This document shows, piece by piece, positions 20,078-35,636 of a stretch of DNA of 63,928 nucleotides. The notes below the pieces were generated by a model, which saw only the letters and a program-made list of their open reading frames with translations, was not told the DNA's origin and ran no database searches. The DNA is from Oscillibacter sp. (GTDB lineage: Bacteria; Bacillota; Clostridia; Oscillospirales; Oscillospiraceae), in the NCBI RefSeq assembly GCF_028693505.1, contig NZ_JAQUVF010000015.1:1-63928 (forward strand), given 5' to 3'. Each line of letters opens with the position of its first letter. Position 1 is the first letter of the stretch. The position numbers and the translations under genes are program-made.

Positions 20078-21820
20078 TTACTGGGGCAGCGTCTGCACGG
20101 TGCCCCGGGCGCAGTCCACGGAAACCATCACGCCGTCCTTAAGCCGGTGGGTGACGTCCATGGCGCCCACAATGACCGGCTTATTCAGCGTGAGGCCCAC
20201 CGTGGCGGCATGGCTGTCGCCGCTGGCCTCCTCGCTGATGACGGCGGCGGCCTGCCGGACATAGGGCAGCATCTCGTTGGTGGTGTAGGGCACCACCAGT
20301 ACATCGCCGGGGCGGAATTTTTCCGTCACTTCGTCAAGACCCCGGCAAACGCACAGCGCTCCGCTGGCCTTCTGGTCGCCAATGCCCACGGCATTGACCA
20401 AAGAGCCGCCCACCTGATGGACCCGGATCATGTTGGTGGTCCCGGTGACGCCCACAGGCACCCCGGCGGTGACCACCACCAGATCGCTCTGTTTTACGAT
20501 TCCGGCGTTTACCGACGTTTGCACCGCCAGCTCCACCAGTTCGTCGGTGCTGCCGGCGTAGGGCATGGTCAGCGGCTCCACGCCCCAGTAGAGCGCCATC
20601 TGCCGCTGGACCTGCGGGTCCAGCAGCAGCGCCACCACCGTGGTCTTGGGCCGGAAGCGGCTGACCATCTGGGCGGTGACGCCCCGCTGGCTGACGGTGA
20701 GAATGGCGTCCGCGCCGATATCCAGCGCGGTGGAGCAGGCGGCGTGGGCCGTGGCGGCGGTGACGGAAAGACGGGCCTTGCCCATCACCTTCAGCGGCCG
20801 CACCGTCTCGTCCATGGTGGCCTCGGTCTTGCGGGCGATGGCGTCCATCGTGCGCACCGCCTCCACCGGATACTTGCCCGCCGCCGTCTCGCCGGAGAGC
20901 ATGATGGCGGAGGTGCCGTCGTAAATGGCGTTTGCAACGTCCGTGATCTCCGCCCGGGTGGGGCGGGGATTTTCCATCATGGAGTCCAGCATCTGGGTGG
21001 CGGTGATGACCGGCTTTCCGATGGCCACGCACTGGGCGATCATGTCCTTTTGCAGGACCGGAATCTCCGTGAAGTCGATCTCAACGCCCAGATCGCCCCG
21101 GGCCACCATGATGCCGTCCGCCACCGCCAGGATTTCAGGCAGATTGGAGATGCCCTCCTGATTTTCCACCTTGGCGATGATGCGGATATTGGAGCCGGCC
21201 CGGTCCAGCACGCTGCGGATCTCCCGCACGTCGGCGGCGGAGCGGACAAAGCTGGCGGCAATATAATCAAAGCCCTGCTCGGCGCCGAAGAGGAGATCCT
21301 CCCGGTCCCGCTGGCTCATATAAGACATGTTCAGCCGCACGCCGGGGACGTTTACGCCCTTTTTATCCTTCATCATGCCGTCGTTTTCCACACGGCAGCG
21401 GATGTTGGCGCCGGTGGTCTCCAGAACAGTCAATCGCACCAGCCCGTCGTCCAGCAAAATGGTGTCCCCCGCCTTCACGTCGCTCGGCAATTCGGAGTAG
21501 GTGATGGCGCAGCGATGCGCGTCGCCCTGCACGTCCTCCGTGGTCAGCGTAAATTCCGCCCCCGTCACCAGCTTCACAGATCCGGCTGCAAAGGTTTTCA
21601 GCCGGATCTCCGGCCCCTTTGTGTCCAGCATGGCCGCCACGGGACGCTTCAGCTCCTCCCGCAAAACCTTCAGCTTCTCCAGCCGGACCTTGTGCTCTTC
21701 ATGGCTGCCGTGGGAAAAATTGAACCGGGCCACGTTCATGCCCGCGAGGACCATTTCCCGCAAAACGCCCTCCCGATCTGTGGACGGCCCCAGTGTGCAG
21801 ACAATTTTCGTCTTTCTCAT
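20078..21820 (-). CDS. pyk: Pyruvate kinase with C-terminal phosphohistidine-like domain
   Basis: A 580-residue pyruvate kinase, the last ATP-forming step of glycolysis. The (beta/alpha)8 core carries CTLGPST, ARFNFSHG, the catalytic lysine motif IIAKVENQEG and MLDSMMENPRPTRAE, with a small B domain inserted at about 70-165. An extra ~100-residue domain at the C-terminus (from about 475, VCRGLDEVTEKFRPGDVLV) resembles the mobile PEP-utiliser domain found on Bacillus and Clostridium pyruvate kinases. The ATG at 21820 has AAGGGG seven bases upstream; a TTG two codons earlier is less likely. Monocistronic. Confidence 0.97.
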   Translation of the reverse strand: MRKTKIVCTLGPSTDREGVLREMVLAGMNVARFNFSHGSHEEHKVRLEKLKVLREELKRPVAAMLDTKGPEIRLKTFAAGSVKLVTGAEFTLTTEDVQGDAHRCAITYSELPSDVKAGDTILLDDGLVRLTVLETTGANIRCRVENDGMMKDKKGVNVPGVRLNMSYMSQRDREDLLFGAEQGFDYIAASFVRSAADVREIRSVLDRAGSNIRIIAKVENQEGISNLPEILAVADGIMVARGDLGVEIDFTEIPVLQKDMIAQCVAIGKPVITATQMLDSMMENPRPTRAEITDVANAIYDGTSAIMLSGETAAGKYPVEAVRTMDAIARKTEATMDETVRPLKVMGKARLSVTAATAHAACSTALDIGADAILTVSQRGVTAQMVSRFRPKTTVVALLLDPQVQRQMALYWGVEPLTMPYAGSTDELVELAVQTSVNAGIVKQSDLVVVTAGVPVGVTGTTNMIRVHQVGGSLVNAVGIGDQKASGALCVCRGLDEVTEKFRPGDVLVVPYTTNEMLPYVRQAAAVISEEASGDSHAATVGLTLNKPVIVGAMDVTHRLKDGVMVSVDCARGTVQTLPQ

Positions 21821-21862
21821 ATGCAAACCCCTTTCTCAGGTAATCGTTTTCTTTCCGTGAAT

Positions 21863-21891
21863 ATTGTAACACAGTCCCGCAAAATTGTAAA
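21863..21891 (-). promoter_or_regulatory. Promoter of pyk
   Basis: On the minus strand TTTACA (21891-21886), 17-bp spacer, TACAAT (21868-21863), about 45 bp before the pyk start. Confidence 0.78.
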
Positions 21892-21959
21892 ACCCCCCGC
21901 AGGTAAAAATAGTGAAAAAATTTTGTTTTCCCAAATGTATTTCTTTGGCATCCGTTGTT

Positions 21960-22129
21960 TTCAGGCGGCACGCCTGCCCTTCGGGAGTCCGGCGGGAAGC
22001 GCTGGAAGCGCTCCTCCGTCACGAGGGTCAGCAGCTCTGGTACAGCCAGCTCATGACCACGCCCCAGACCATCGCCGATTTTTGCAGCCGGACCACTGGA
22101 TGCAAACCTACGAGGTGCGCGTAGTATAA
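21960..22129 (+). pseudogene. Possible 3' relic of a small plus-strand gene
   Basis: In the 350-bp gap between pyk and the glycosyltransferase, one plus frame reads plausibly (LEALLRHEGQQLWYSQL, then TTPQTIADFCSR). A second plus frame continues as WMQTYEVRVV with a stop at 22129, just before a terminator. Together they look like the frameshifted end of a lost gene. There is no good start or ribosome site, and its upstream part would run into the pyk promoter. Not recognised; low confidence. Confidence 0.25.
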
Positions 22130-22142
22130 CCCTTCTCGCCGC

Positions 22143-22176
22143 AAAAAATCGCACGGTTAACACCGTGCGATTTTTT
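22143..22176. terminator. Terminator of the glycolipid operon
   Basis: A perfect 15-bp stem, AAAAAATCGCACGGT with loop TAAC, gives a T-run on both strands. The glycosyltransferase stop codon (22175-22177) overlaps its outer end. Confidence 0.9.
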
Positions 22177-23218
22177 ATACATTGACCCGCCTTGGGGAAA
22201 GCGGCGCTGGCAGCGGCGGCAAAATGCGCTCCTGCCGGTAGATTTCCCGCAGCTGACGGCCCACGGCCTCCAGACTTCGCTCCGCCGCCACCTGCTCTCC
22301 CGCCGCCGTCAGGTCCGGCAGCGCTCCGTCCAGCAAACCTTCGACGAGGCGGCAAAAGCCGTCGGTGTCCGCAGCCTTGTAGACGTTCTTTCCGTCCTCC
22401 AGCCAGTCCTGATACACGGGGATGTCCCGCACCACGGTGGGAATGCCGCAGCTGAGCGCTTCCAGCACCACGATGCCCTCCGTCTCCTCATGGCTCAAAA
22501 AGGCGAACACATCCGCGCCGCAGTAAGCCTCCCGGAGCTGCCCACGGTCCACAAAGCCGGGGAAGCGCACGTTGGCGGGCGCTTGGTCCATGGCCTCCCT
22601 GATCGCGGCGGGGACCAGACGGGGGTCCGTCCAGCCAAACCAGAAAAATTGAGCCGCGGGCATCCGCCGGGCCATCTCCAGAAACTCCGGCAAGCCCTTT
22701 CGGGCGATGGTGTGGCCCACGGAGATGACCGCCTTTTCCCCGTCCCCAAGGCCGTACCGCCGCCGAAACGCCGCGCCCAGCGCCTTGTCCGGATGGAAAA
22801 AGGCCGTGTCCACCCCGTTGGACAACGGGTACACCGGCCGGCGCAGGCCGTAGGTTTTCAAAAGGTCGCGGGAGTATTCCGTGGGCGTGATGACCACGTC
22901 CCCCAGCCCGTAGCAAAACGTGATCCACCGCCGGAACAGCGGGGCGAGCAGGTTGGAGCCTTTGAAGGAATCCCGGAAATCCTCCATGGTGGAGTGGCCG
23001 TACCAGACCACCTTCTTCCCCCGCAGTTTGGCCCCCAGCGCCGCCGCCACAGAGTCCGGCAGCACGGTGTTGACGTGGATGGCGCCCACGTCCTGCGCCC
23101 AGTGGTCCGCCGGGGAGATCCCCGCCCGATGCAGCGACTCTCTTTGGTGCTGCATGGCCTGTCCCACACCGCTCTTGCCCACAAGCTTCTCGCCGCCGCG
23201 ATAAATGTAAATGCGCAT
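22175..23218 (-). CDS. GT4 glycosyltransferase, likely second glycolipid transferase
   Basis: A 347-residue GT-B glycosyltransferase. The segment VVWYGHSTMEDFRDSFKGSN and a C-terminal donor site (AFLSHEETEGIVVLEALSCGIP, with the paired glutamates of retaining GT4 enzymes) are visible. The GHST-EDF-SF-GSN pattern resembles, from memory, the diglycosyl-diacylglycerol synthases of low-GC Gram-positives (CpoA/LafB group). The likely role is adding the second sugar to a membrane glycolipid at the cytoplasmic face; this is inference. ATG at 23218 with AAGGAGGCAGC. It is the third gene of the operon, 14 bp after the VTT gene. Confidence 0.85.
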   Translation of the reverse strand: MRIYIYRGGEKLVGKSGVGQAMQHQRESLHRAGISPADHWAQDVGAIHVNTVLPDSVAAALGAKLRGKKVVWYGHSTMEDFRDSFKGSNLLAPLFRRWITFCYGLGDVVITPTEYSRDLLKTYGLRRPVYPLSNGVDTAFFHPDKALGAAFRRRYGLGDGEKAVISVGHTIARKGLPEFLEMARRMPAAQFFWFGWTDPRLVPAAIREAMDQAPANVRFPGFVDRGQLREAYCGADVFAFLSHEETEGIVVLEALSCGIPTVVRDIPVYQDWLEDGKNVYKAADTDGFCRLVEGLLDGALPDLTAAGEQVAAERSLEAVGRQLREIYRQERILPPLPAPLSPRRVNV

Positions 23219-23232
23219 GGAAGCTGCCTCCT

Positions 23233-23820
23233 TTATTTGACCAATGCCTGCCAGATGACCGTGAGTCCCAGACTGTACAGGGCAATGGCAAACGGTTTTC
23301 CCAAAAGAATGATGGTGGTGTACCGCCGCCAGCTCATCTCGGTGGTCCCCGCCAGATAGCACAAAAAGTCGTCCGGCGCCACTGGCAAAAAGATCGCCAG
23401 TGCAAACAGCCGGGAAAAGCGGGCCTTCTCCCGGGTCCACCGGCTGTATTTTTCAATGGTCCGCTGGGAAAAGAGCAGGGGCAGCAGGGGCTTTCCGCAG
23501 TTGCGCGCCACGGCGAAGGCCAGCAGCGACCCAATGCAGATGCCCACATAATTGTAAACAAATCCCCACATGGGGCCAAACAGCAACACCCCCGCAAGGC
23601 AGCCAAGGCCACCCGGCAGCACGGGGACCACCACCTGCACCGCCTGAAACGCGGTGAACAGCAGCGCCCCCGCCGCGCCCGCGCCCGCCACCAGTGCGGC
23701 CAAGCGCTCCTGAGAGGTCAGGATGCCGGTCTGCCAGCCCCACAGGGCCACCAGAATGCAAATGGCAAGTCCCGCCAGAGAGACCACCCGCAAAACGGTT
23801 CGTTCAATGGGCTGCGTCAT
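23233..23820 (-). CDS. VTT/TVP38 (DedA-superfamily) membrane protein
   Basis: A 195-residue integral membrane protein of the VTT family. The core VVPVLPGGLGCLAGVLLFGP, GSLLAFAVARNCGK and FLPVAPDDFLCYLAGTTEMSWRRY is typical, with about five hydrophobic segments. DedA-superfamily members act as lipid scramblases or undecaprenyl-phosphate flippases. Here the gene sits between two glycosyltransferase genes and overlaps the first by 4 bp (ATGA). Handling of the glycolipid or its carrier is therefore a reasonable inference, not shown by sequence. The ATG at 23820 is preceded by GGAGGTGTC; the longer frame is antisense noise. Confidence 0.88.
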   Translation of the reverse strand: MTQPIERTVLRVVSLAGLAICILVALWGWQTGILTSQERLAALVAGAGAAGALLFTAFQAVQVVVPVLPGGLGCLAGVLLFGPMWGFVYNYVGICIGSLLAFAVARNCGKPLLPLLFSQRTIEKYSRWTREKARFSRLFALAIFLPVAPDDFLCYLAGTTEMSWRRYTTIILLGKPFAIALYSLGLTVIWQALVK

Positions 23821-24989
23821 GCGGACACCTCCTTGCAGCTGTGTCGGGCCATCTGCCGACAATAAATTTCTTCCGCTCTTGCGGCAAAGGTCTCCGCGGA
23901 AAATTCCCCGGCGCTTTCCCGCGCCGCCGCGGACAGCGCCTGTCTCCGGTGGGGCTGGGCGGAAAACAAATCCAGCTTTTCCTGAAAATCCGCCCCGGTG
24001 CGGTACTGCCAGCCGTTTTCCCCGTCCCGGATGACGCCCTGGAGACAGGGGTCCTCCCGGCACAGCGCCGGGACCCCGGCCGCCAGCGCCTCCGCGTAAG
24101 TAAGGCCCTGTGTCTCGCTGGTGGAGGCGGAGACAAACAGGTCCCCCAGCTGATACCAGTCCGCCACCTGCTCCGGCGGCACCTGCCCGGCAAACACCAC
24201 GTCCGGCGCATGAAGCCCCAGCTCCTCGGTCAGCTTCTCCAGCGCGGCGCGGTGGGGTCCGTCCCCCACCAGAAGCAGCGTGAGCGCACCGTGGCCCATG
24301 GCCGCGCGCAGCCGCAGCAGCTCCTCCACGTTTTTTTCTTCCGCCAGACGGCCCACGCTCACCAGCACCAGCCGGTCCTCCGGAATATGCAGGCTCGCCT
24401 TCAGCACCGCCGTCCGCCACGGGTCCGCCTCCCGGCAAAAGCGCCTGAGGTCAATGCCCGACGGCACCACAAACACCGGCTGGCGCACGCCGTAGCCCTT
24501 TAGCAGCTGCCGCACCTTCGCCGTGGGGGCGATCAGCGCGTCCGTCTGCCCGGCTACCCAGCGGGAAAACACCGCCACCGCCTTCTTCCCGAAGCGGACG
24601 CTGGGGGAAAAGTAATGGGTATAGTCCTCGTAGACGGTGTGGTACGTATGGATCAAGGGAATATCCAGCTCCTCCGCAATGCGGCGGGCCAGAAAGAACG
24701 TGGAAAACTCGCACTGGGAATGGACCACGTCCGGATGCCACGCCACCAGATCCCGCACATAGCTTCCCGCCAGCGCCGTGCGCAGGCGGGCGCCGGGATA
24801 GATGAGTCCCGCAGCCACGGAGCCGAGATAGGTGACGCCGTTTTTCTCCCCGGAGCGCGTGGTCTGGGAAAGCGTCAGCACCCGCACCTCGTGCCCCCGA
24901 CGCTCCAGCTCCTGCCGGAGATTCTTCACCGACGTGACCACACCGTTCACTGCCGGCAGATACCAATCCGTCGTAATTAAAATTTTCAT
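23817..24989 (-). CDS. GT4 glycosyltransferase, likely diacylglycerol glucosyltransferase
   Basis: A 390-residue retaining GT-B enzyme. The N-terminus (ITTDWYLPAVNGVVTSVKNLRQELERRGHEVRVLT) and the IHTYHTVYEDYTHYF segment fit the 1,2-diacylglycerol 3-alpha-glucosyltransferase group (LafA/Spr0982-like). The donor-site end reads FVSASTSETQGLTYAEALAAGVP. It would transfer the first sugar from a nucleotide donor to diacylglycerol at the inner membrane face. First gene of the operon; ATG with AAGAGGAACC; overlaps the VTT gene by 4 bp. Acceptor and sugar are inferred from family resemblance only. Confidence 0.87.
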   Translation of the reverse strand: MKILITTDWYLPAVNGVVTSVKNLRQELERRGHEVRVLTLSQTTRSGEKNGVTYLGSVAAGLIYPGARLRTALAGSYVRDLVAWHPDVVHSQCEFSTFFLARRIAEELDIPLIHTYHTVYEDYTHYFSPSVRFGKKAVAVFSRWVAGQTDALIAPTAKVRQLLKGYGVRQPVFVVPSGIDLRRFCREADPWRTAVLKASLHIPEDRLVLVSVGRLAEEKNVEELLRLRAAMGHGALTLLLVGDGPHRAALEKLTEELGLHAPDVVFAGQVPPEQVADWYQLGDLFVSASTSETQGLTYAEALAAGVPALCREDPCLQGVIRDGENGWQYRTGADFQEKLDLFSAQPHRRQALSAAARESAGEFSAETFAARAEEIYCRQMARHSCKEVSA

Positions 24990-25050
24990 TCTCGGTTCCT
25001 CTTTTCCTTGCTTCTCTTTCTATAACGATGCAAACGCCCGTTTTGCTTCA

Positions 25051-25122
25051 ACAGTTTGTCTGCACTCTGTATCATTGTACTAGCGTATTAGTAATAATAG
25101 TACAGTTAACACAGTTTGTCAA
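25051..25122 (-). promoter_or_regulatory. Glycolipid operon promoter with repeat sites
   Basis: On the minus strand TTGACA (25122-25117), 17-bp spacer, TATTAT (25099-25094) form a near-perfect promoter. The spacer holds AACTGTGTTAACTGT, two AACTGT direct repeats. The 10-mer GACAAACTGT occurs twice, exactly 60 bp apart (25111-25120 and 25051-25060). An inverted repeat TGTACTA-N15-TAGTACA (25076-25104) spans the -10 box and the start of transcription. Several protein-binding sites are likely. Confidence 0.7.
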
Positions 25123-25226
25123 GTATCCGAACCCAGTATATTTATTTTTTGTGAAGGGTTCCTTCGTTTTCCTGTAAAATCCATAAAAAATTATGCTCAC
25201 CGGCGCAGTCGGTGGTTTTCCTCCGC

Positions 25227-25271
25227 AAAAAAGGAGTCCCCCGGACCGATGGTCCGGGGGACTCCTTTTTT
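25227..25271. terminator. Terminator of the HpcH/HpaI aldolase gene
   Basis: A 21-bp perfect stem with A- and T-tracts at its base and a GAT loop, 14 bp after the aldolase stop. It can act on both strands. Confidence 0.95.
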
Positions 25272-25285
25272 TTAAGTCTCTTCAA

Positions 25286-26074
25286 TTATTTGGAGAAGCT
25301 TTCCACATCCGCCTTGGCGCCCTGCATGAAGATGTAGGTGTCGCAGGCGTAGCCGATGAACTTGACGCCCAGATCGCGCCACTTCTTGCCGCCCTCCACG
25401 GAGTCGGCAAAGCAGCCAACCTTCACGCCCTTGGCGGCGGCCTTGGCGATAATCACCTTGATGGCGTCGGTGACGGCGGGGTGGTCGATCTGGCCCACGA
25501 GGCCCAGAGAGCTGGAGAGGTCGTAGGGTCCAACGAACACCACGTCGATGCCGGGGACATCCAGAATCTCGTCCAGATTGTCCACAGCCTTCTTGCCCTC
25601 GGCCTGCACGATGACCATGGTATCCTGCGCCTTGGCGAAGTAGTCCTTGCCGGCAATGGCGCCAAACCCGGCGGAGCGGACGAAGCGGCAGGTACCCCGG
25701 GTGCCCACGGGGGAGAACTTGGCGGCAGACACGGCGGCCCGGGCCTGCTCGGCGGTGTCGATCTGGGGGATCATCACCGCGCCGGCGCCCACGTCCAGCG
25801 CCTGATCGATCCAAATGTCGCTGCCGCGGGGCACGCGGACCACGGGGCAAACGCCGGCCACGTTGGCGGCGCGGATCAGATTGGGCAGCGTCTGGAAGGT
25901 GGTGGTGCCGTGCTCCATATCCAGCAGCACGAAATCATATCCGGCGTAACCGGCAGCCTCTACAAACGCGGGGTCGGTCCCGATCATGAAGGGGCCGAGA
26001 GCGCCCTTGTCGGAATCCATTGCGGCCTTAAAACGGGTGATGCTGTCCATCGTCGGCATTTTGCTTACATCCAT
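25286..26074 (-). CDS. HpcH/HpaI-family aldolase/citrate lyase-like protein
   Basis: A 262-residue TIM-barrel class II pyruvate aldolase. Visible family features are VLLDMEHG, VVRVPRG, the metal-binding Glu in IVQAEG and Asp in VGPYDLSSSLG, and MIPQIDTAEQARAAV. These enzymes cleave or form 4-hydroxy-2-oxoacids, usually giving pyruvate plus an aldehyde. The real substrate is not deducible, and no aromatic-degradation genes are nearby. ATG with AAGGAGAATC upstream. Monocistronic between its own promoter and terminator. Confidence 0.9.
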   Translation of the reverse strand: MDVSKMPTMDSITRFKAAMDSDKGALGPFMIGTDPAFVEAAGYAGYDFVLLDMEHGTTTFQTLPNLIRAANVAGVCPVVRVPRGSDIWIDQALDVGAGAVMIPQIDTAEQARAAVSAAKFSPVGTRGTCRFVRSAGFGAIAGKDYFAKAQDTMVIVQAEGKKAVDNLDEILDVPGIDVVFVGPYDLSSSLGLVGQIDHPAVTDAIKVIIAKAAAKGVKVGCFADSVEGGKKWRDLGVKFIGYACDTYIFMQGAKADVESFSK

Positions 26075-26153
26075 AATTGATTCTCCTTTTCTTTTCGGCG
26101 TCCGCGCCGTTCATTCCATATTGCGGAAAACTCTTCCGCGTTTCAACACCTAC

Positions 26154-26183
26154 ACTATACGCGCCGCCTTAGCGGTTTGTCAA
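26154..26183 (-). promoter_or_regulatory. Promoter of the HpcH/HpaI aldolase gene
   Basis: On the minus strand TTGACA (26183-26178), 18-bp spacer, TATAGT (26159-26154). The -35 box overlaps the end of lspA, so no separate lspA terminator is visible and read-through is likely. Confidence 0.8.
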
Positions 26184-26605
26184 CGCTTTCCCCGCACTTT
26201 TCGGCGCTTTCCCAGCAGTACGGCCCCGGTGAAAATAAACAGGTCCGCCAGATTGTACACATACCGGTTGAGCGGGCGGGGCGCTTTGGGGAACTGCAGG
26301 TAATCGTACACCCGCCCCCGGCGCAGACGCTCCAGCAGATTGCTGACTCCCCCGCCCAGAATCAGCGCGGTCCCGGCACCGCTCTTGCGGCGCAGGCAAA
26401 AAAGCGCGGAGAGCGCCAGCAGGGAAAGCGCAATCAATCCGCCCTTTGGCAGTGGCAATCCAAAGGCGGCCCCCTCGTTCCAAAGCGTCCGCAGGCGGAC
26501 CCATCCCCCGGCATACGTGCGCTCCCCGCGGCTGGTGCGGTCCAGATACCAGCGTGCGGCGGTGCAAAGTGCCAGCACCGCGCCCGATACAAGCAGGATT
26601 CCCAT
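26180..26605 (-). CDS. lspA: Lipoprotein signal peptidase (SPase II)
   Basis: A 141-residue membrane aspartyl protease that removes signal peptides from prolipoproteins; the window encodes several lipoproteins. Four hydrophobic segments and the LspA signatures are present: NEGAAFG (43-49), GGGVSNLLERLRRGRVYDYLQF with catalytic Asp101, and YNLADLF with Asp121. The N-terminal D-x-x-TK motif is degenerate (LDRTSRG), but both catalytic aspartates are kept. ATG at 26605 has AAAGG seven bases upstream; GTG at 26611 would overlap the preceding stop by 4 bp and is an alternative. Translationally coupled to the GTPase-NYN fusion gene. Confidence 0.9.
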   Translation of the reverse strand: MGILLVSGAVLALCTAARWYLDRTSRGERTYAGGWVRLRTLWNEGAAFGLPLPKGGLIALSLLALSALFCLRRKSGAGTALILGGGVSNLLERLRRGRVYDYLQFPKAPRPLNRYVYNLADLFIFTGAVLLGKRRKVRGKR

Positions 26606-26607
26606 GA

Positions 26608-29256
26608 TCACACCTTTCCGGCCTTGGCGGCCTTTTCCATGGCGGTGCGCATGGCGCCGCTCCTCGTTTTCTGGTTGTTTTTCGCCAGCGCGGCGGCGAT
26701 CTGCCCCTGCACCCGCTCCACTTCCTCATGGAAACCGGACGCGGAAACGCGCAGCGCGCCGTGGCCCAGAATGATCAGCTGCTCCGGCCCGTCGGAGGTG
26801 GCCACCCGCACCCGGTGGCGGCGATCAATTTCGTAGGTGGCCTTTTCAATGTAGGCGTCCGCCGTCTCCGCCTCTTTCGTGTAGACCACATGGATGTTGT
26901 GGTATTTCTCCACTGACCCCTGCCCGCCCTTGACGCGATAGGCGTCAAACACCAAAATGACGTGGCAGTGCTGATAGCCCTGGTAATTGCACAGCAGGTC
27001 GCACAGCATTTTCCGGGCGGCGTCCAGATTGTCCCGGGCCACCGTCTTGAGCTCGTCCCACGCAAAGAGGATGTTGTATCCGTCCACCAGCAGGTACTCC
27101 TCTCCCGAAAAGGCTTCCCGCACGGCCTGACCCGCTTGCGCATCGTCGGTGCTGGGGCGGCGGGGTTCTCGGGGCGGCTGGAAGGCGGGGGAGCGGACGG
27201 GACCGTAGGTCCGCTCAAAAATGGCCTGCAATTCCCGATCCTGCTCCACCGTTCCGGCGTAGGTCGAGGGACGCCGGGGGCGATATGCTTCCGTCTCCCG
27301 CTCCTGCGGCTTCCCTAGCCGCAGTCCGCTGTCCACATGGGCAAGGGCGGAAACCTGATCCCACTTCACCGTGTACCCGCCGCCGTGGGCGCAGAACACG
27401 GAGTCCGCCGGGTTGTCCGCGTCCCGCTCCGGGTCGTAGCCCGACGCGGCGGCAATGCGCGCCCCCTCCGGGCAGGGACGGTAGCCCGCCGGGGTGCAGA
27501 GAAGCCTTCCCCGGCCCCGGGTATAGGCCGTTACCTCCCGGGCATAGTCCCGCAGCGCCGCCACCGGTGCAGCTCCCGTGAGCACCGTCTCCTCCCCCGC
27601 CGTCTCCGGCGGATTCTGCTGCCCGTTCATGCGCTGGAGATCGCTCATGGCCCGCCCCACCTGCTCGGAGGGCAGCTCCAGCCGGAAATCATACCATGGC
27701 TCCAGCAAAACGCTTTGCGCCTGCATCAGTCCCTGCCGCAGCGCCCGGAAAGCGGCCTGACGGAAATCGCCGCCCTCCGTGTGCTTTTCGTGAGCCCTCC
27801 CCGCCACCAGCGTGACCCGCAGGTCCGTGACCGGCGCGCCGGTCAGCACGCCGGGATGCTCCCAAAGGGCAAGCTGCCCAAGAATCAATCGCTGCCAGTG
27901 GCCCTCCAGCTGGTCCTCCGGACAGGCGGACCCCAGCGTCAGTCCGCTGCCCGGCTCCCCCGGCTCCAGCAGGAGATGGACCTCCGCATAATGGCGTAGC
28001 GGCTCAAAGTGGCCGATGCCCTCCACGGGAGCGGTGATCGTCTCCCGGTAGAGGATCGCCCCCGCGCCAAACGTCGCTTCCATGGAAAAGCGCTCCCGCA
28101 GGATGCGCTGCAAGATCTCCAAGTGCACCTCGCCCATGAGCTGCATGCGGATCTCCCGGTGTACCTCGTTCCAAACCACGTGAAGCTGGGGGTCTTCCTC
28201 TTCCAGCAGCCGCAGCTGGGGCAGCGCGGTGTGGGGGTCCGTCCCCTCCGGCAGCTCCACCCGATAGGCGAGGACCGGCTCCAGCAGCGGGCTGGTCCAG
28301 TCGGACTCAAAGCCCAGCCCCATGCCCGGCACCGTGTGGCTCAGGCCCGTCACCGCGCACACCGTGCCGGCGCTCGCTTCCTCAATGAGACGAAATTTCG
28401 TCCCGGAATACAAGCGCAGCTGGTCCGCCTTTTCCTCCCACGCCGTCTCGCCGTCCGCGCCGCAGGCGGTGAGCATTTCCTTTACCCGCAGCGTGCCCCC
28501 CGTGACCTTCAAGTAGGTGAGCCGGGCGCCCTGCCCGTCCCGGGCGATTTTGAACACCCGGGCGCCAAAGGACTGGGGATAGTCGGGCAGGGGCGCATAG
28601 CGTGCAAGGCCCGCCGCCAGCGCGTCCACCCCCTCCAGCTTCAGCGCGGAGCCAAAATAGCAGGGGAACAGCGCCCGCCGGGAAATCATGCCCCGCACGT
28701 CCCCGTCGGGGAGGACGCCGCGCTCCAAATACCGCTCCAGCACCGCTTCGTCGCACACGGCGGCCTCCTCCGCCAGGGTCTCCGCCGCGCCGAAATCCAC
28801 GCAGCCGCCGGAGAGCCGCCGCTTGAGCTCGGCAAGCACCTTCTCCCGGTCCGCGCCCGCCAAATCCATTTTATTGATAAAGAGGAACACCGGCACCTCG
28901 TACCGTTTCAGCAGCTGCCAGAGCGTCCGGGTGTGGGCCTGCACGCCGTCCGTCCCGCTCACCACCAGCACGGCGCAGTCCAGCACCCGGAGCGTCCGCT
29001 CCGTCTCCGCCGAAAAATCCACATGGCCCGGCGTATCCAGCAGGGTGATCTCCCGCTCTCCCGCGGAAAATACCGCCTGCTTGGAAAAAATCGTAATGCC
29101 CCGCTCCCGCTCCATGGGGTCCGTATCCAAAAAGGCGTCCTGATGGTCCACCCGCCCCAGCTTGCGCAGCGCGCCGCTTTCGTAAAGCAGCGCCTCGGAA
29201 AGCGTGGTCTTTCCCGCGTCCACATGGGCCAGTATGCCAACGACCAGCTTCTTCAT
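26608..29256 (-). CDS. TetM-like translational GTPase fused to a YacP/Rae1-type NYN domain
   Basis: An 882-residue two-part protein. Residues 1 to about 650 form an EF-G-like ribosomal GTPase of the TetM/TetW class: G1 AHVDAGKT (10-17), G2 RGIT (52-55), G3 DTPGH (74-78), G4 NKMD (128-131), then domains II-V with GEVHLEILQRIL. After a Pro/Arg-rich linker, residues 719-858 form a NYN (PIN-like) domain with the YacP/Rae1 pattern: LLVDGYNILFAW, VFDAYRVKGG, EKYHNIHVVYTKEAETADAY, VATSDG. The expected acidic residues are D725, D771, D800 and D822. Free-standing Rae1 of Bacillus subtilis enters the ribosomal A site and cuts mRNA; TetM binds the same region. A coupled ribosome-remodelling and mRNA-cleaving factor is therefore a fair inference. 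It may not confer tetracycline resistance. ATG with GGGAGGGC; divergent from pfkA; followed by lspA. Confidence 0.93.
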   Translation of the reverse strand: MKKLVVGILAHVDAGKTTLSEALLYESGALRKLGRVDHQDAFLDTDPMERERGITIFSKQAVFSAGEREITLLDTPGHVDFSAETERTLRVLDCAVLVVSGTDGVQAHTRTLWQLLKRYEVPVFLFINKMDLAGADREKVLAELKRRLSGGCVDFGAAETLAEEAAVCDEAVLERYLERGVLPDGDVRGMISRRALFPCYFGSALKLEGVDALAAGLARYAPLPDYPQSFGARVFKIARDGQGARLTYLKVTGGTLRVKEMLTACGADGETAWEEKADQLRLYSGTKFRLIEEASAGTVCAVTGLSHTVPGMGLGFESDWTSPLLEPVLAYRVELPEGTDPHTALPQLRLLEEEDPQLHVVWNEVHREIRMQLMGEVHLEILQRILRERFSMEATFGAGAILYRETITAPVEGIGHFEPLRHYAEVHLLLEPGEPGSGLTLGSACPEDQLEGHWQRLILGQLALWEHPGVLTGAPVTDLRVTLVAGRAHEKHTEGGDFRQAAFRALRQGLMQAQSVLLEPWYDFRLELPSEQVGRAMSDLQRMNGQQNPPETAGEETVLTGAAPVAALRDYAREVTAYTRGRGRLLCTPAGYRPCPEGARIAAASGYDPERDADNPADSVFCAHGGGYTVKWDQVSALAHVDSGLRLGKPQERETEAYRPRRPSTYAGTVEQDRELQAIFERTYGPVRSPAFQPPREPRRPSTDDAQAGQAVREAFSGEEYLLVDGYNILFAWDELKTVARDNLDAARKMLCDLLCNYQGYQHCHVILVFDAYRVKGGQGSVEKYHNIHVVYTKEAETADAYIEKATYEIDRRHRVRVATSDGPEQLIILGHGALRVSASGFHEEVERVQGQIAAALAKNNQKTRSGAMRTAMEKAAKAGKV

Positions 29257-29289
29257 GCCAGCCCTCCCGCTTCTTTTTATCGTGGCTCG

Positions 29290-29318
29290 ATCATATCATT
29301 TTTCCCGGCCGTCCGCAA
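29290..29318 (-). promoter_or_regulatory. Promoter of the GTPase-NYN fusion gene
   Basis: On the minus strand TTGCGG (29318-29313), 17-bp spacer, TATGAT (29295-29290), giving a short leader of about 27 nt. No TetM-type leader peptide or attenuator fits in it. Confidence 0.6.
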
Positions 29319-29410
29319 GTCGGGCGGCGGTCTCGTTGTGTTCCTTCACATATTTTTCGTGCTTAGTTAATCGTTTTCTACAAAATTTAATCATTTTCGC
29401 AGAAAGAATC

Positions 29411-29439
29411 TTGACAGCAAAGTTTGAGAATTGTATAGT
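29411..29439 (+). promoter_or_regulatory. Promoter of pfkA
   Basis: TTGACA (29411-29416), 17-bp spacer, TATAGT (29434-29439), about 80 bp before the pfkA start. Confidence 0.85.
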
Positions 29440-29521
29440 CGATGAAAAAGGCTTTTCGGTCGGTGTCTTTTTCGCAGCGGTTGAAAATCGCACCAGAGCA
29501 GCAAGGCAAGGAGGACTCAGC

Positions 29522-30532
29522 ATGGATCATCAGGTAAAACGAATCGGCGTTCTGACCAGCGGCGGCGACGCCCCCGGCATGAACGCGGCTGTCCGCGCCG
29601 TTGTGCGGACGGCGATTGGCAGCGGCATTGAGTGCATCGGCATCCGCCGGGGCTGGAGCGGCCTCATCAACAGCGACTTCTTCCCTATGGACACCGGCAG
29701 CGTCAGCCATATCATTGACAAGGGCGGCACGATTCTCTACACCGCCCGCAGCGAGGAATTCTTAGGCGCTCCCGGCCGTGACAAGGCCTTGGCAACGTGC
29801 AAGCTGCTGGGGCTGGACGGCATCGTGGCCATCGGCGGAGACGGCACCTTCCGGGGCGCTTTGGCGCTGTCTCGTCAGGCGCAAGAAGCCGGGCACCGGC
29901 TGCAGGTGGTGGGTATCCCCGCCACCATCGACAACGACATCGGCTGTTCCAACTATACCATTGGCTTCGATACCGCCTGCAACACCGCCATTGAGTGCGT
30001 CGACAAGCTGCGGGATACCATGCAGTCTCACGAGCGCTGCTCCGTGGTGGAGGTTATGGGCCGCCACGCGGGATATCTTGCCCTGTACGTGGGTATTTCC
30101 GTGGGCGCCACCGCCGTTTTGATCCCCGAGCGGGAGGTGGATTTTGACCGGGACATCGTGGAGAAAATCCGCCGGGCACGTCTCATGGGCACCACCCATT
30201 ACATGGTCGTGGTGGCGGAGGGCGCCGGCAGCGCCGTGGACATCGGCCGCCTGATCCACGACGAGATCGGCATCGACCCCCGGGTCACCGTACTGGGACA
30301 TATCCAGCGGGGCGGCTCCCCCACCGCCCGGGACCGGGAGACCGCCAGCCGCATGGGCTACGAGGCGGTGATGTCGCTGTGCGCCGGCAAGGGCAACCGC
30401 ATCATCGCCACGCAGGAAGGCCGCATGGTGGATTTGGACATGGAGGAAGCGCTCCAAATGACCAAGCCCTTCCAGATGGACCGCTATCAGATTCTGGAGG
30501 CGCTGACCAGCACCGGAAGATTCCCTCTGTAA
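29522..30532 (+). CDS. pfkA: ATP-dependent 6-phosphofructokinase
   Basis: A 336-residue PFK that phosphorylates fructose 6-phosphate to fructose 1,6-bisphosphate, the committed glycolytic step. The first nucleotide-binding loop is SGGDAPGMNAA (13-23), GGDGT (105-109) is the ATP-type rather than the PPi-type motif, and the catalytic ATIDNDI and GHIQRGGSPTARDR segments are present. Slightly longer than the ~320-residue norm. The ATG at 29522 follows AAGGAGGACTC; the longer frame crosses the promoter and is not real. Confidence 0.97.
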   Translation: MDHQVKRIGVLTSGGDAPGMNAAVRAVVRTAIGSGIECIGIRRGWSGLINSDFFPMDTGSVSHIIDKGGTILYTARSEEFLGAPGRDKALATCKLLGLDGIVAIGGDGTFRGALALSRQAQEAGHRLQVVGIPATIDNDIGCSNYTIGFDTACNTAIECVDKLRDTMQSHERCSVVEVMGRHAGYLALYVGISVGATAVLIPEREVDFDRDIVEKIRRARLMGTTHYMVVVAEGAGSAVDIGRLIHDEIGIDPRVTVLGHIQRGGSPTARDRETASRMGYEAVMSLCAGKGNRIIATQEGRMVDLDMEEALQMTKPFQMDRYQILEALTSTGRFPL

Positions 30533-30578
30533 CAAAATAGGAACCATGCCCCCGCTTTGGGCGGGTGTCCGCAGAGTA

Positions 30579-30618
30579 AAAACGATCCGAACCGGGTTCA
30601 CCCGGTTCGGATCGTTTT
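30579..30618. terminator. Bidirectional terminator between pfkA and the convergent gene
   Basis: A perfect 18-bp stem starting AAAACGATCCGAACCGGG with loop TTCA gives T-tracts on both strands. Confidence 0.93.
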
Positions 30619-30677
30619 CTGCCTTATATATTCCGCCGCCCGGAAAACGGGAGGCTACCCTTTCTTTCTCTTCCGCT

Positions 30678-31718
30678 TCAAGGCTTTGCAGACATACGAA
30701 ACGTCTGGGCAACGCCCCATACCACGCTGCCATATCCGATTTCTGCCTCGTTGGGATAATCCTGACGCACCGTATAGGCGGTATCCCCGTACTGGTAGTA
30801 ATAGATCGTCAGGCACCGGCTGTCATTGACCTGCCTGAATACAGGATGATCTGTGCGCTCCAGCGCGGCGTCCGGCTCTGCTGCCTGCACCGCCGCAAAA
30901 AGTGCATCCTCGGAAACACGCCCCAGCCCCGGCCAGACACGGACGCTCAGCGTGGCCAGTTTCTGTTCCTCCATGGTCCAGATGACCTCGTTGTTTTCCG
31001 GGCGGACCGTTTCGCTCCAGCCCTCGCTGGGGATATACAGGGTATAGCCGTTTCCGGTATACAGTCTCCCCGGCAGTTCCCCGCCGGAAAGCGCAATGGT
31101 TCCTTGCTCCGGCAGCGCCGGGAGCGTCCCGGTTTCCAGCGTTTCGGCAATCGCTTTTACCAGCGCGCCAAATCCTTCCACAGCCTCGGCAGGATACTGC
31201 CCCCAGATGGCGCATCCACACTCCCCGTCATACAGCATCCGGGCAAGAGCCTCCGTTCCTGTGGCTTTGTCCGTGAAATACGACCAGTCGCGCTCCTCCA
31301 GACCGGGGCTGGAAAATCCGGGATTTTTCACCAGAAAGAACTCCTGAAAAATCATGGGCGTCCCGCCTTCGGCAATCCAAACCTCAAAGAAAACCTTTGG
31401 ATTGACGGTGGAAACCCACCTGTTGGAATCAGGTTCCTTCTGCCAGCCCTCATTCGGGATGTAGAGTGAAAAACTGCTATTCGCGTTTTCCCGAACGGAG
31501 TCGTGCAGCGGCATGACGGTCTCATACAGCGTGGCGGGCACAGTCTCCTTTTCTCCCTCCAAAAAAACAGTGATCTGGGACGCGGCCTCCCGGCCGGATC
31601 CTGTGGCGGCGTGCGAAGCATCCGCTCCGGCGGCGCCGGGGGCAGGCGGTGTTGGCCCGCAGACAGACATGGCCAGTGAAAGTGCAAAAACGGTCAGCGT
31701 TCTAAAGAATGATACCAT
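30678..31718 (-). CDS. Exported protein with duplicated domain
   Basis: A 346-residue predicted exported protein. The N-terminus (MVSFFRTLTVFALSLAMSVCG) looks like a signal peptide with a Cys at the right place for lipidation, but the lipobox (MSVC) is atypical. The mature protein appears to be a tandem duplication. Residues about 80-190 (SFSLYIPNEGWQKE...) and 220-340 (GYTLYIPSEGWSET...) share the YIP-x-EGW start followed by similar beta-strand spacing. No family recognised. ATG with GGGAGGAATC upstream. It stands alone and converges on pfkA. Confidence 0.82.
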   Translation of the reverse strand: MVSFFRTLTVFALSLAMSVCGPTPPAPGAAGADASHAATGSGREAASQITVFLEGEKETVPATLYETVMPLHDSVRENANSSFSLYIPNEGWQKEPDSNRWVSTVNPKVFFEVWIAEGGTPMIFQEFFLVKNPGFSSPGLEERDWSYFTDKATGTEALARMLYDGECGCAIWGQYPAEAVEGFGALVKAIAETLETGTLPALPEQGTIALSGGELPGRLYTGNGYTLYIPSEGWSETVRPENNEVIWTMEEQKLATLSVRVWPGLGRVSEDALFAAVQAAEPDAALERTDHPVFRQVNDSRCLTIYYYQYGDTAYTVRQDYPNEAEIGYGSVVWGVAQTFRMSAKP

Positions 31719-31852
31719 CAGCAGATTCCTCCCAGCTTTTGTTTTTGGTTTTTCCCATGAAATGGTATCATATTAAATCAAAAATGACAAGGGCGCACCG
31801 GTAAACCATACCGGCTGATGGACGCCGCCATTTGCGCGGTACGCTTCCTACT

Positions 31853-32527
31853 TTAGGGCGTTTGCGGTTCATCGGCGCGCTTCTCCGACTGGCCGTAGGT
31901 TTGAAAGCGGTTCATGGCGGCGTCCATCTGGTCCTTCGTGAGCACGTTGGGCGTCCCCACCGCCATGGCCCGCCACTGAAGCTCCGCCACAAATTCCAGA
32001 TCCCGGGCCAGCCCATAGGCCCCCGGCAGACTCTCCCCCCAGGCAACCAAGCCGTGGTTGCCCAGCAGCACCGCCCGCCCCTCGCCGCAGGCTTCCACCG
32101 CCTCCCGAGCAAGGGCCTCCGTGCCGAAGAGACAGTAGGGCGCGCAGGGCACCTCCGCCGCTCCGGCGGCAGCGATGGCATAGTGGACGGCCCGAAGGGG
32201 CTGTCCCAGCACCGCCAGCGTGGTGCAGTACACGGAATGGGTGTGGACCACCGCCCGGGCCGCCGGGTGTCGGCGGTAAAGCTGGGTATGCAGCGCCCAC
32301 TCGCTGGAGGGCTTTCTCTCCCCCTCCACCACGTGGGCCTCCAGATCCGTCACCACGATGTCCGCCGGGGTTATGGAAAAATAGTCGAGTCCCGACGGCG
32401 TAATGGCCATCAGGCACTCCTGTGGGTCGTAGACGCTCAGGTTTCCGCTGGTGCCGGTGCTCAACCCCGCGGCGCTCATCTGCCGCCCGCACTCCGCCAG
32501 CTGCGCTCGAATCTCCTGCAATTTCAT
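31853..32527 (-). CDS. Class II aldolase/epimerase (L-fuculose-phosphate aldolase type)
   Basis: A 224-residue zinc-dependent enzyme of the AraD/FucA family. The motifs are in order: GLSTGTSGNLSV (phosphate binding), ITPSGLDY, PSSEWALH (catalytic Glu), VVHTHSVYCT (two zinc His) and LLGNHG (third zinc His). Length fits L-fuculose-1-phosphate aldolase better than ribulose-5-phosphate 4-epimerase; an S-methyl-ribulose-phosphate salvage role is also possible. ATG with AAGGAGAACG. The start lies only 24 bp from the trkH terminator, leaving no room for its own promoter there. The sugar substrate is not settled. Confidence 0.88.
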   Translation of the reverse strand: MKLQEIRAQLAECGRQMSAAGLSTGTSGNLSVYDPQECLMAITPSGLDYFSITPADIVVTDLEAHVVEGERKPSSEWALHTQLYRRHPAARAVVHTHSVYCTTLAVLGQPLRAVHYAIAAAGAAEVPCAPYCLFGTEALAREAVEACGEGRAVLLGNHGLVAWGESLPGAYGLARDLEFVAELQWRAMAVGTPNVLTKDQMDAAMNRFQTYGQSEKRADEPQTP

Positions 32528-32550
32528 AGGCGTTCTCCTTTCTTATTTCA

Positions 32551-32579
32551 AAAAAGGCCGCCCGACGGGCGGCCTTTTT
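32551..32579. terminator. Terminator after trkH
   Basis: A 13-bp stem, AAAAAGGCCGCCC with loop GAC, lies 6 bp after the trkH stop and just before the aldolase ribosome site. Some read-through must occur if the aldolase is expressed from the trk promoter. Confidence 0.85.
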
Positions 32580-32584
32580 GCAGT

Positions 32585-34048
32585 TCAGGGAGCGATCTTT
32601 CGGCTGAGCAGCCGCCGCTTCCAGATGGAGGGGGCGAACAGCAGCAGCGTGGGGAAAATTTCCAGACGGCCCACCAGCATGTTGAAGGAAAGCAGGAGCT
32701 TGCTCCAGGGGGAGAATGCCGCAAAGTTCCCCATGGGACCCACCAATTCAAGGCCCGGGCCGATGTTGTTGATGCAGGCGGTCAGCGCCGTAAAGGTGGT
32801 GATCAGGTCAAACTGCTCCAGCGACAGCAGCAGGAAGGAGACCGTAAACACCAGAATGTAAACCGTGAGAAACAGATGGACGCTGCGCAGGTTCCGGTCC
32901 GTCAGGGGCTTGCCCTCAAACCGCACCGTGGACACCGCGTTGGGATGCAGCATCCGCCGCATGTCGCCGTAGGACGCCTTGATCAAAATGACCACCCGCG
33001 CCACCTTGATACCGCCGCCGGTGGACCCGGCGCAGGCGCCGACGAACATCAGCACCACCAAAATTGCCTTGGAAAAGGTGGGCCAGGTGTTGAAATCCAC
33101 CGAGGAATAGCCGGTGGTGGTGATGATGGAGGACACCTGAAAGAAGGCGTGGCGCAAACTGGTGGCGGCGGAGCCGTAAATGTGGACGATGTCCACGGCA
33201 ATGGCAACCACCGCGGCGGTGACGATCAGGAGGTAGCTGCGCAGCTCCTCGGAGTGGAACACGTCCCGGAACCGCCGGATCAGCAGGAAATAGTACAAAT
33301 TGAAATTCACGCCGAAAAGGAGCATGAAGATGCCGATGACAATGTCGAAATAAGGGCTGTTGTAGGCGCCCACGCTGAGGTTGCGGCAGCTGAAGCCGCC
33401 GGTGCCGGCGGAGCCGAAGGCATGGATGCACGAATCAAACAGCGGCATCCCACCCAGAAGCAGCAGCACGATCTCGATGACCGTCATCACAAAATAGATG
33501 CCGTAGAGAATTTTGGCGGTGTCGCTCATGCGGCTGACCAGCTTGCCCACGGAGGGGCCGGGTACCTCCGCCCGCAAAAGGTGCATCCCGTGTCCGTCCG
33601 ACATGGGCAAAATGGCCATCACGAACACCAGCACGCCCATGCCGCCCACCCAGTGGGTGAAGCTGCGCCAGAACAAGCCGCCCCGGCTGAGGGGTTCCAC
33701 CGCCGTGAGGATGCTTGCGCCGGTGGTGGTGAAGCCGGATACCGTTTCAAAAAAAGCGTCCACATAGGACGGGATATCCCCGGAGAGGACGAAGGGCACC
33801 GCGCCGAAGGCGGACACGGCGATCCACGCCAGCGCCACCACCGCAAGGCCGTCCCGGGCGTACAGCGCCGTGCGCTTGGGCTGGCGAAAGCTCAGCGCCA
33901 GACCCGTCAGAACCAGCGCCGCAATGGGAATCAGGAACGGCACCGCCGACTCACCGTACAGCAGCGCCACCACCATGGGCAGCGCCAAAAGCGCCGCCTC
34001 TGTCAGCAGGATTCGGCCGTTGACGTAGCCGATCATTTGATAATTCAA
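32585..34048 (-). CDS. trkH: TrkH-family potassium uptake channel
   Basis: A 487-residue membrane protein with the four pore-loop repeats of the TrkH/KtrB family. Filter-like segments are visible at TVSGFTTTGAS, AFGSAGTGGFS, SSIITTTGYSSVD and ACINNIGPGLE, with GACAGSTGGGIKVAR on the cytoplasmic side. It imports K+ as a dimer gated by the TrkA ring encoded just upstream (16-bp gap). TTG start with GGAGG seven bases upstream; an ATG four codons later is possible. Operon order is trkA-trkH. Confidence 0.95.
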   Translation of the reverse strand: MNYQMIGYVNGRILLTEAALLALPMVVALLYGESAVPFLIPIAALVLTGLALSFRQPKRTALYARDGLAVVALAWIAVSAFGAVPFVLSGDIPSYVDAFFETVSGFTTTGASILTAVEPLSRGGLFWRSFTHWVGGMGVLVFVMAILPMSDGHGMHLLRAEVPGPSVGKLVSRMSDTAKILYGIYFVMTVIEIVLLLLGGMPLFDSCIHAFGSAGTGGFSCRNLSVGAYNSPYFDIVIGIFMLLFGVNFNLYYFLLIRRFRDVFHSEELRSYLLIVTAAVVAIAVDIVHIYGSAATSLRHAFFQVSSIITTTGYSSVDFNTWPTFSKAILVVLMFVGACAGSTGGGIKVARVVILIKASYGDMRRMLHPNAVSTVRFEGKPLTDRNLRSVHLFLTVYILVFTVSFLLLSLEQFDLITTFTALTACINNIGPGLELVGPMGNFAAFSPWSKLLLSFNMLVGRLEIFPTLLLFAPSIWKRRLLSRKIAP

Positions 34049-34064
34049 CTTGATTCCTCCGCCT

Positions 34065-35426
34065 TCACTGCAGGATGTCGTGGATGTCCTGGAGCGTCGT
34101 ATCCGTGGTCACCACAATCACATCGTCGTTTTCATGCAGGACATCGTTGCCGGAGGGGATGACAATCTGGCCGCTTTGCCGGACGATTCCCGCCAGTAGA
34201 ATGCCGCTTCTGAGCGTCAGGTCCTTGAGCGGCACGCCGATAAAGGGCACATCCGCGCTCACGCCGAATTCCAGCGCCTCCACCGCGCCGTCCACCAGAC
34301 GGTGCAGCGTCTTGACCTTTGCGCCGGAGGCGCTTTGCATGGCCCGGACATACTGGACGATCAGCTCGGTGGTCACCGAGGCGGCGGAGACCACGCTGTC
34401 GATCATGTGCTCCGCCGACACCAGATCCACCAGTGGCTTGCGGTTGATCTTCGCCACCACCTTGCAGTCTCCGGACTGCTTGGCGGCGCTCATGGACATC
34501 AGGATATTGGCCTCGTCCAGACCGGTGATCGCCACGAAGGCGTCCGTCTGCTCGATTCCCTCCTCATGCAAAAGCTCGCTGTTGGTTCCGTCTCCCACAA
34601 TGACCAGCGCCCGGGGCAGCATCTCCCCCATCTGGACGCAGCGCTGCTCGTTCTGGTCGATGATCTTCACGGACATGCCCATCTCCAAAAGTTCCGAGGC
34701 AAGGTAGTAGCACATCTTGCTGGCGCCCACGATCATCACGGAGGACGCCCGGCTGCGGAACACGCCCAGATGCCGGAAGAACTGGGAGAGCTGCTCCGGC
34801 GAGGCGGTGAGATAAATCTTGTCCCCGGCGTGCAGCACAAATTCGCCCGTGGGGATGATGGTCTCCCCCTTGCGGGCAACGGCACAGATCAGCACGCGCA
34901 CGCGGATGTTGCGGTATAGGTCCGCCAAAAGCATCCCGTCCAGCGCGGAGTTTTCGCTCAGGCGGTATTCCACCAGCTCCAGCCGGCCCTTGGAAAAGGA
35001 CTCCAGCTTCATGGCCGCCGGGAAGCGCAGCACCCGGGCAACTTCCCGGGCGGTGGCCTTTTCCGGGTTGATGGCCATGGAAAGGCCCAGCTCCTCCCGC
35101 ATGAACCGCAGCTGCGTCTCATACTCGGGGTTGCGGATGCGGGCGATGGTATGTTCAACTCCCAGCTTCTTGGCCACAAGACACGCCAAGATATTGATCT
35201 CGTCGCTGGAAGCGGTGGCGATCAACAGCTCGGCCTTTTCGGCCTCCGCCTCTTTTTGCACCTCATAACTGGCTCCGTTGCCGCAAACACCCATCACATC
35301 ATAGATATTGATGATGTTGTCGATCAGTTGGGAATTCTGGTCGATGACGGTCACACGGTTTTCCACAGAGAGCTGCTGCGTCAGCGCCAGTCCCACCTTT
35401 CCAGCGCCCACGATGATGATTCTCAT
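34065..35426 (-). CDS. trkA: TrkA potassium-uptake regulatory protein
   Basis: A 453-residue peripheral protein with two tandem RCK units, each a Rossmann RCK_N plus RCK_C. The first nucleotide site is IIIVGAGKVG (3-12) with VIDQN at the strand-2 end. The second is VMIVGASKMCYYLA with IIDQNEQR. It binds NAD(H)/ATP and gates the TrkH channel. Full-length double-RCK form, as in classical TrkA. The ATG at 35426 has GAGGAGAGATT upstream. Confidence 0.95.
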   Translation of the reverse strand: MRIIIVGAGKVGLALTQQLSVENRVTVIDQNSQLIDNIINIYDVMGVCGNGASYEVQKEAEAEKAELLIATASSDEINILACLVAKKLGVEHTIARIRNPEYETQLRFMREELGLSMAINPEKATAREVARVLRFPAAMKLESFSKGRLELVEYRLSENSALDGMLLADLYRNIRVRVLICAVARKGETIIPTGEFVLHAGDKIYLTASPEQLSQFFRHLGVFRSRASSVMIVGASKMCYYLASELLEMGMSVKIIDQNEQRCVQMGEMLPRALVIVGDGTNSELLHEEGIEQTDAFVAITGLDEANILMSMSAAKQSGDCKVVAKINRKPLVDLVSAEHMIDSVVSAASVTTELIVQYVRAMQSASGAKVKTLHRLVDGAVEALEFGVSADVPFIGVPLKDLTLRSGILLAGIVRQSGQIVIPSGNDVLHENDDVIVVTTDTTLQDIHDILQ

Positions 35427-35449
35427 AATCTCTCCTCGTTCCAAATCGT

Positions 35450-35490
35450 CTCCCGGCCTGAAAAGGCCGGGAGGTAGTAAGTGAATTATA
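35450..35490 (-). promoter_or_regulatory. trkA -10 box and leader hairpin
   Basis: On the minus strand a TATAAT box (35490-35485) with no good -35 is followed by a 10-bp stem-loop, CTCCCGGCCT with a tetraloop (35473-35450), in the short 5' leader. No c-di-AMP riboswitch is recognisable; the hairpin may stabilise the message or affect initiation. Confidence 0.4.
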
Positions 35491-35595
35491 CTGGATAATT
35501 CCTGAAAAGGGAATACCTTTCACAGGGGTTTGGCGGAAATTTTATATTCTCCGGTCGTCCCTTTTTTTCTTTTTATCCGCGTCTCTATTTTTTTC

Positions 35596-35624: not shown

Positions 35625-35636
35625 GTGCTTAAATTA

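Follow-up and report, generated by a model that had tools for sequence, protein, structure and literature searches.

A gene that joins a Rae1-type endonuclease to a translational GTPase raises the question of what the two activities do on one polypeptide, and to which of the known families the product belongs. The gene lies on the minus strand at 26608..29256 of the window, by which we mean the whole stretch of DNA analyzed (63,928 nucleotides of contig NZ_JAQUVF010000015.1 from Oscillibacter sp., assembly GCF_028693505.1), and it encodes an 882-residue fusion of an EF-G-type translational GTPase and a Rae1-type NYN endonuclease. The ribosomal A site was reported as the place where Rae1 of Bacillus subtilis cuts mRNA (PMC12320835; PMC6613710), and its action under prolonged stalling was suggested (PMC10100781). 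Tet-type factors were described as entering the A site and as appearing to require GTP hydrolysis to leave it (PMC8161019). The interpretation favored here, with moderate confidence, is that the gene encodes the genome's only Rae1, a ribosome-dependent mRNA endonuclease, fused to an EF-G-type GTPase for ribosome docking and A-site clearing. Ribosome binding, GTPase activity and A-site mRNA cleavage would be expected of the fusion from the families of its two halves.

The fused chain and its Rae1-type domain

The reading frame starts with ATG and is unbroken on the minus strand, and the plus-strand reading of the same span contains stops. Pfam matches, each above its cut-off, assign GTP_EFTU to residues 5-222 (5e-52), EF-G_D2 to 231-308, EFG_III to 326-397, EFG_IV to 400-514, EFG_C to 516-597 and NYN_YacP to 722-874 (2.3e-49). 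Based on these matches, alignment, a predicted model and comparison with relatives, the chain can be divided into the G domain (residues 5-222, 28591..29244) with intact G1-G5 motifs, domains II and III, domain IV (residues 400-514, 27715..28059) with loop III GRAHEKHTEGGDF at 486-498, domain V with a C-terminal extension (residues 516-640, 27337..27711), a linker (residues 641-718, 27103..27336), the NYN nuclease domain (residues 719-838, 26743..27102) and a C-terminal helical tail (residues 839-882, 26611..26742), all on the minus strand. Most of the unfused relatives read stop shortly beyond the end of the extension (about residue 640), and the linker has low confidence over most of its length in the predicted model. 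The original prediction had proposed such a fused chain without giving the strand, together with a search of its domains; frame and Pfam bear it out, with all five GTPase domains and NYN_YacP recovered. The same unbroken fusion was found in many independent genomes, and chance or an assembly fault is therefore excluded.

The NYN_YacP match (PF05991) reaches 168 bits against a gathering score of 24.6. In an alignment to the B. subtilis structure 5mq9, D725, D771, D800 and D822 correspond to D7, D53, D81 and D104 of Rae1, and these four acids are identical in 27/27 full-length fusions and in all 81 distinct fused NYN sequences. N728 and Q826 are likewise identical in 81/81, and E804 in 78/81. 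The C-terminal domain has the Rae1 fold. A YacP/Rae1-type NYN domain with its four acids kept had been predicted, with absence of the fold or of the acids named as what would speak against it; the fold is present and the acids are invariant at the positions given. The fold also resembles protein-only RNase P, and a part in rRNA and tRNA maturation has been put forward for NYN domains (cited in PMC4342817), both of which would suit a nuclease for rRNA or tRNA processing or ribosome quality control that is guided by the GTPase and targets rRNA rather than mRNA; this role is considered very improbable. No sign was found of an internal start releasing a free Rae1 from the fused gene: a Shine-Dalgarno sequence with a start codon at most 45 codons before the NYN motif occurred in 8/81 fused genes versus 49/405 control windows.

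Conservation was measured as the mean share of the majority residue per domain in an alignment of 27 full-length fusions, consisting of the window's and 26 others with 44-69% identity to it. The shares were 0.68 for G, 0.64 for II, 0.61 for III, 0.77 for IV, 0.62 for V, 0.64 for the C-terminal extension and 0.67 for NYN, and 0.31 and 0.32 for the linker and the C-terminal tail, so that domain IV is the best and the linker the least conserved part. The linker spans 67-119 residues (median 78, counted in alignment columns), and loop III is mostly GRAHxKHTEGGDF, with deviations in four loci (L100, L104, L106 and L110). Because the domains have shares of 0.61-0.77 against 0.31 for the linker, sequence conservation indicates constraint on both modules but not on the segment that joins them.

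Distribution, origin and replacement of free Rae1

The genome of the window contains one NYN_YacP match, which is the fusion gene. Among 60 related genomes, the window's own included, NYN_YacP was detected in 35 of the 36 others of the same genus, in frames of at least 864 residues except in G022 (671 residues at a contig end) and G024, and in long frames in 4 of 23 genomes of other genera. One genome (G012) has a second copy in a 350-residue frame. As a side observation, the fusion gene of G024 (C7:5369-7161) is split over two frames of 304 and 692 residues, by mutation or sequencing fault. A further count, which scored the fusion-type GTPase and not NYN, covered the 42 genus genomes at least 90% complete: the GTPase was present in 40, in frames of 877-1102 residues in 37; its gene is cut by a contig end in G475 and in pieces in G022 and G024, and the GTPase was not found in G474 and G482. 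The fusion is a near-universal gene of the genus.

In a phylum-wide sample of 398 genomes, again including the window's own, NYN_YacP matched in 208, and 205 were above the cut-off: 23 in frames of 857-937 residues (fused) and 182 free, with whole frames of at most 349 residues. With the GTPase profile, these 23 again stood out, all scoring at least 756 bits, and the next match (741 bits) was unfused. Weak NYN matches in long frames of G378, G095 and G450 were left uncounted, being below the cut-off and having no GTPase/NYN by phmmer. The best 80 loci of a scan of named records, 20 of them complete fusions, extended the fusion to Lachnospiraceae, Oscillospiraceae, Ruminococcus flavefaciens, Pseudobutyrivibrio, Mogibacterium and others. 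At least 80% of the fusion occurred in 2 of 72,556 plasmid records. A survey of this kind had been proposed in the original prediction, and it finds a gene of many lineages that is rare on plasmids.

Outside the fusions, a free NYN_YacP-like gene for a Rae1-like nuclease, with 39% identity to the window domain, was noticed on 12 plasmid records of Clostridioides difficile (about 97-150 kb). In a fecal 'Bacteriophage sp.' record (MT835563), an NYN stretch covers 73% of the window domain at 73% identity; this may be host DNA in the record.

The fused and free forms were together in none of the 205 genomes above the cut-off. Two NYN_YacP matches were seen in only two genomes, one with the free gene twice (G282) and one whose free gene is interrupted by contig ends (G385). 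At the rate of the remaining genomes (182/375), about 11 of the 23 fused genomes would be expected to have a free copy; this naive figure takes no account of kinship. Two families are mixed between genera: in f82, G293 is fused and G115, G154, G188 and G317 are free; in f97, G155 and G341 are fused and G427 is free. A fusion-type GTPase was found in none of these five free-state genomes, the best match having 364 bits.

In 5/5 loci read, free yacP has rlmB and sigH as its immediate neighbors, one on each side, downstream of cysS. The operon genes were named by eye, and the names are supported by Pfam in the loci checked (tRNA synthetase 1e, Ribonuclease_3, Thy1, SpoU methylase and Sigma-70 in L123; rlmB and sigH of L264 and L267; sigH of L271). 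Among the fused-gene genomes, cysS was located in 16, and 10 of these places were read. In 8/10 (L264-L271), rlmB is followed directly by sigH, with the frames at most about 290 bp apart, which is too short for the domain; cysS lies elsewhere in G058 and in the window's genome, and the operon place could not be judged in these two. A search of all frames of at least 40 residues with phmmer (E up to 0.1) found no NYN remnant in the ten cysS places. The fusion stands in for free Rae1, and since it has replaced that protein, a ribosome-linked nuclease function is supported.

The origin of the fusion was traced with three trees. In a GTPase tree of 49 rows picked by hand, all 22 fused rows, a selection from the loci retrieved, formed one clade (100/99). 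It stood beside seven unfused Bacillota GTPases with nearly the same loop III (grouping 91/97), and an eighth unfused row (L154) fell outside. An NYN tree, built on 145 columns and 75 rows after 18 of the 60 free loci had been thinned out, also gave one fused clade (99/94), neighbored by two free Rae1 proteins of the same class; its bootstrap had not settled. The fusion arose once. A wider GTPase tree of 54 rows, to which 12 of the 20 complete fused loci of the named-record scan were added and from which EF-G and part of the outgroup were omitted, placed NYN-less copies of Bifidobacterium (L199:8001-10103; L205:7998-10223) and Collinsella (L204:4579-6708) within the fused clade (100/98), adjoining the window. 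The fusion apparently passed to Actinomycetota by transfer, losing its nuclease. No NYN_YacP match was found in either Bifidobacterium genome, and the Collinsella genome has a separate, weaker one of 91 bits.

The GTPase half and a proposed coupling of the two modules

The GTPase half had been predicted to be TetM/EF-G-like, with all G motifs, and TetM-class. The G1-G5 motifs, domain order and fold agree with the first description; the assignment to the Tet(M) class does not hold. On the Tet equivalog model NF012153 the window protein scores 393.8 bits against a cut-off of 775, compared with 367.6 for EF-G of the same genome (L181), 876.4 for Tet(M) (L169) and 819.2 for a Tet gene (L173). It is not EF-G either, scoring 272 bits on TIGR00484 against a cut-off of 659, and the true EF-G (1157.7 bits) is encoded elsewhere in the genome. 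Loop III is GRAHEKHTEGGDF in the window, YSPVSTPADF in the seven Tet loci read (L161, L169, L170, L173-L176) and GSYHEVDSSEMAF in typical EF-G. In the GTPase tree, with which the wider tree agrees, the Tet(M/W) rows form a clade (99/93) separate from the fused and close unfused rows (100/98). Membership of the Tet proteins was rejected on score, clade and loop III.

These results bear on the suggestion, made in 2015, that the fusion combines an RNase with a ribosomal protection protein directed against tetracycline or another drug of the A site. The EF-G/Tet domain order is compatible with it, Atkinson 2015 grouped the fused proteins with Tet, and the records give the name TetM/TetW/TetO/TetS family protein to many unfused relatives and to one of the two fusions on plasmids. 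Among the loops of Tet(M), functional importance was described as greatest for loop III of domain IV (PMC4750697), but the combined substitution of S508, P509 and V510 by Ala was reported to leave Tet(M) active (PMC4750697), so loop III differences alone do not exclude a Tet function. The C-terminal extension of Tet(M) was described as containing a helix important for function (PMC4750697), and the linker of the fusion starts from this same end. Besides score, clade and loop, the distribution speaks against a protection protein: the fusion-type GTPase is nearly genus-wide and the fusion is rare on plasmids, and Tet-sized matches (644 or 662 residues, 384-395 bits), classed by length and score alone, occurred among the matches listed in 9/42 genus genomes, all nine of which also carry the fusion-type GTPase. 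A protection protein is thus regarded as improbable. The automatic name 'tetracycline resistance' is probably wrong for the fusion group, and such labels may inflate resistome counts.

Beside the Tet(M/W) rows, the tree contains an unfused Tet-like group (L160, L163-L167, L177) with loop III of the GxHHxxHTHPxDF kind; two members scanned on the Tet model gave 587 and 598 bits, below its cut-off of 775.

For a Rae1 docked by its GTPase, the following cycle can be proposed. On a paused or stalled ribosome, the GTP form of the GTPase would enter the factor site, with domain IV reaching into the A site; GTP hydrolysis would release the GTPase and vacate the A site; and the NYN domain, tethered by the linker of about 78 residues, could then enter and cut the mRNA, which would let rescue and decay follow. 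The coupling should be sequential, because domain IV and Rae1, if bound like their relatives, cannot share one A site. The two modules might act in one such coordinated cycle. Tentatively, the protein may even be a one-chain 'clear and cut' rescue factor, in which GTP hydrolysis empties the stalled A site and licenses the Rae1 domain to cut the exposed codon, or that of the neighbor in a collided pair. If this were true, a translational GTPase would gate mRNA cleavage, in the only form of Rae1 that many gut Clostridia have.

Several observations weigh against a docked Rae1 that clears and cuts. The GTPase exists without NYN, both in unfused relatives and in the Bifidobacterium and Collinsella copies, and their persistence indicates that it has a job of its own and can do without the nuclease. 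Unfused GTPase and free Rae1 are not clearly together beyond expectation (7/11 genomes versus 208/398), free Rae1 being present in G392, G253, G278, G369, Neobacillus, Paenibacillus and Intestinibacter and absent from G399, G448, G424 and G055; Rosetta-stone support from the unfused relatives was rejected on these counts. The two genes are far apart or on different contigs in the four phylum-sample genomes in which both places are known. The long variable linker could mean independent modules, and the window genome's old operon is not at cysS, so that an empty place could not be shown there. The persistence of the GTPase without NYN, the lack of clear co-occurrence with free Rae1 and the linker favor the main rival explanation, in which the NYN domain does the ordinary work of Rae1, the GTPase does its own, and chance or co-expression was what fixed the fusion, with no mechanistic coupling. 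On the other side, many lineages have retained the fusion and conserved its two halves, none of the sampled genomes pairs it with a free Rae1, and both partners come from families placed at the ribosomal A site. Two uncoupled functions are judged rather unlikely, and a Rae1 fused to its docking GTPase is retained as the preferred reading.

Gene neighborhood and comparison with known systems

The start of a signal peptidase II-like gene (Peptidase_A8, 143 residues, 26180..26611, minus strand) overlaps the stop of the fusion gene, which suggests coupled translation. This downstream gene is probably outside the system, because no such neighbor recurs at other fusions: in the 40 loci where the fusion was located, of 47 given, no family occurred within five frames in more than five. 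A defense system was rejected, the only match being one of 15.8 bits to LeoA, at the GTPase motif. A 453-residue open frame on the plus strand (28009-29370) covers the fusion's N-terminal half in antisense and probably does not represent a gene, and several more long antisense frames overlap genes in 20000-36000.

The literature searched on Rae1, YacP or NYN with translation yielded no functional study of the fusion, although further papers on Rae1 or Tet structures may mention it; among the papers examined, Atkinson 2015 alone does so. Nor did this literature, which does not include several key Rae1 papers, report that free Rae1 was replaced and its operon place emptied, that the fusion has a single origin and is nearly universal in a genus, or that NYN was lost in Actinomycetota. 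How Rae1 finds its target ribosomes is a question to which the fusion speaks, since it points to a class of partner, the ribosomal GTPases. Rae1 has been joined to such a GTPase, its old operon place has been emptied wherever this could be judged, and the pair has been kept through many lineages. As a single-gene system, it offers recruitment and cutting that are separable by point mutations.

Rae1/YacP of B. subtilis (PDB 5mq8, 5mq9) has the NYN fold and the four acids in common with the fusion, and free Rae1, like the fusion, is almost always the sole NYN_YacP of its genome in the survey. It differs in being a free protein, a 181-residue chain in these structures, and in the loci read its free relatives lie between rlmB and sigH, whereas the fused form lies elsewhere in the genome. 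The unfused GTPases of Paenibacillus, Neobacillus, Intestinibacter and others neighbor the fused clade in the trees, have a loop of the GRxHxKHTSGGDF kind and mostly end near the start of the fusion's linker, but they have no NYN domain, and free Rae1 accompanies them in only part of the genomes checked. From the ribosomal protection proteins Tet(M)/Tet(O), the fusion is set apart by a score under the family cut-off, another clade, another loop III, near-universality in its genus and the extra nuclease. The original prediction held that such an architecture would be a distinct ribosome-rescue or stress system; the architecture itself is already known: Atkinson 2015 (PMC4342817) described NYN-fused 'Tet' GTPases in ten species of Clostridiales, filed them as Tet and suggested antibiotic resistance. 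The window protein is of the same architecture as these fusions, having an EF-G/Tet-type GTPase and a C-terminal YacP-like NYN domain in a clostridium; what differs from that description is that its GTPase does not fall in the Tet(M/W) clade and that the fusion is seen here to replace free Rae1.
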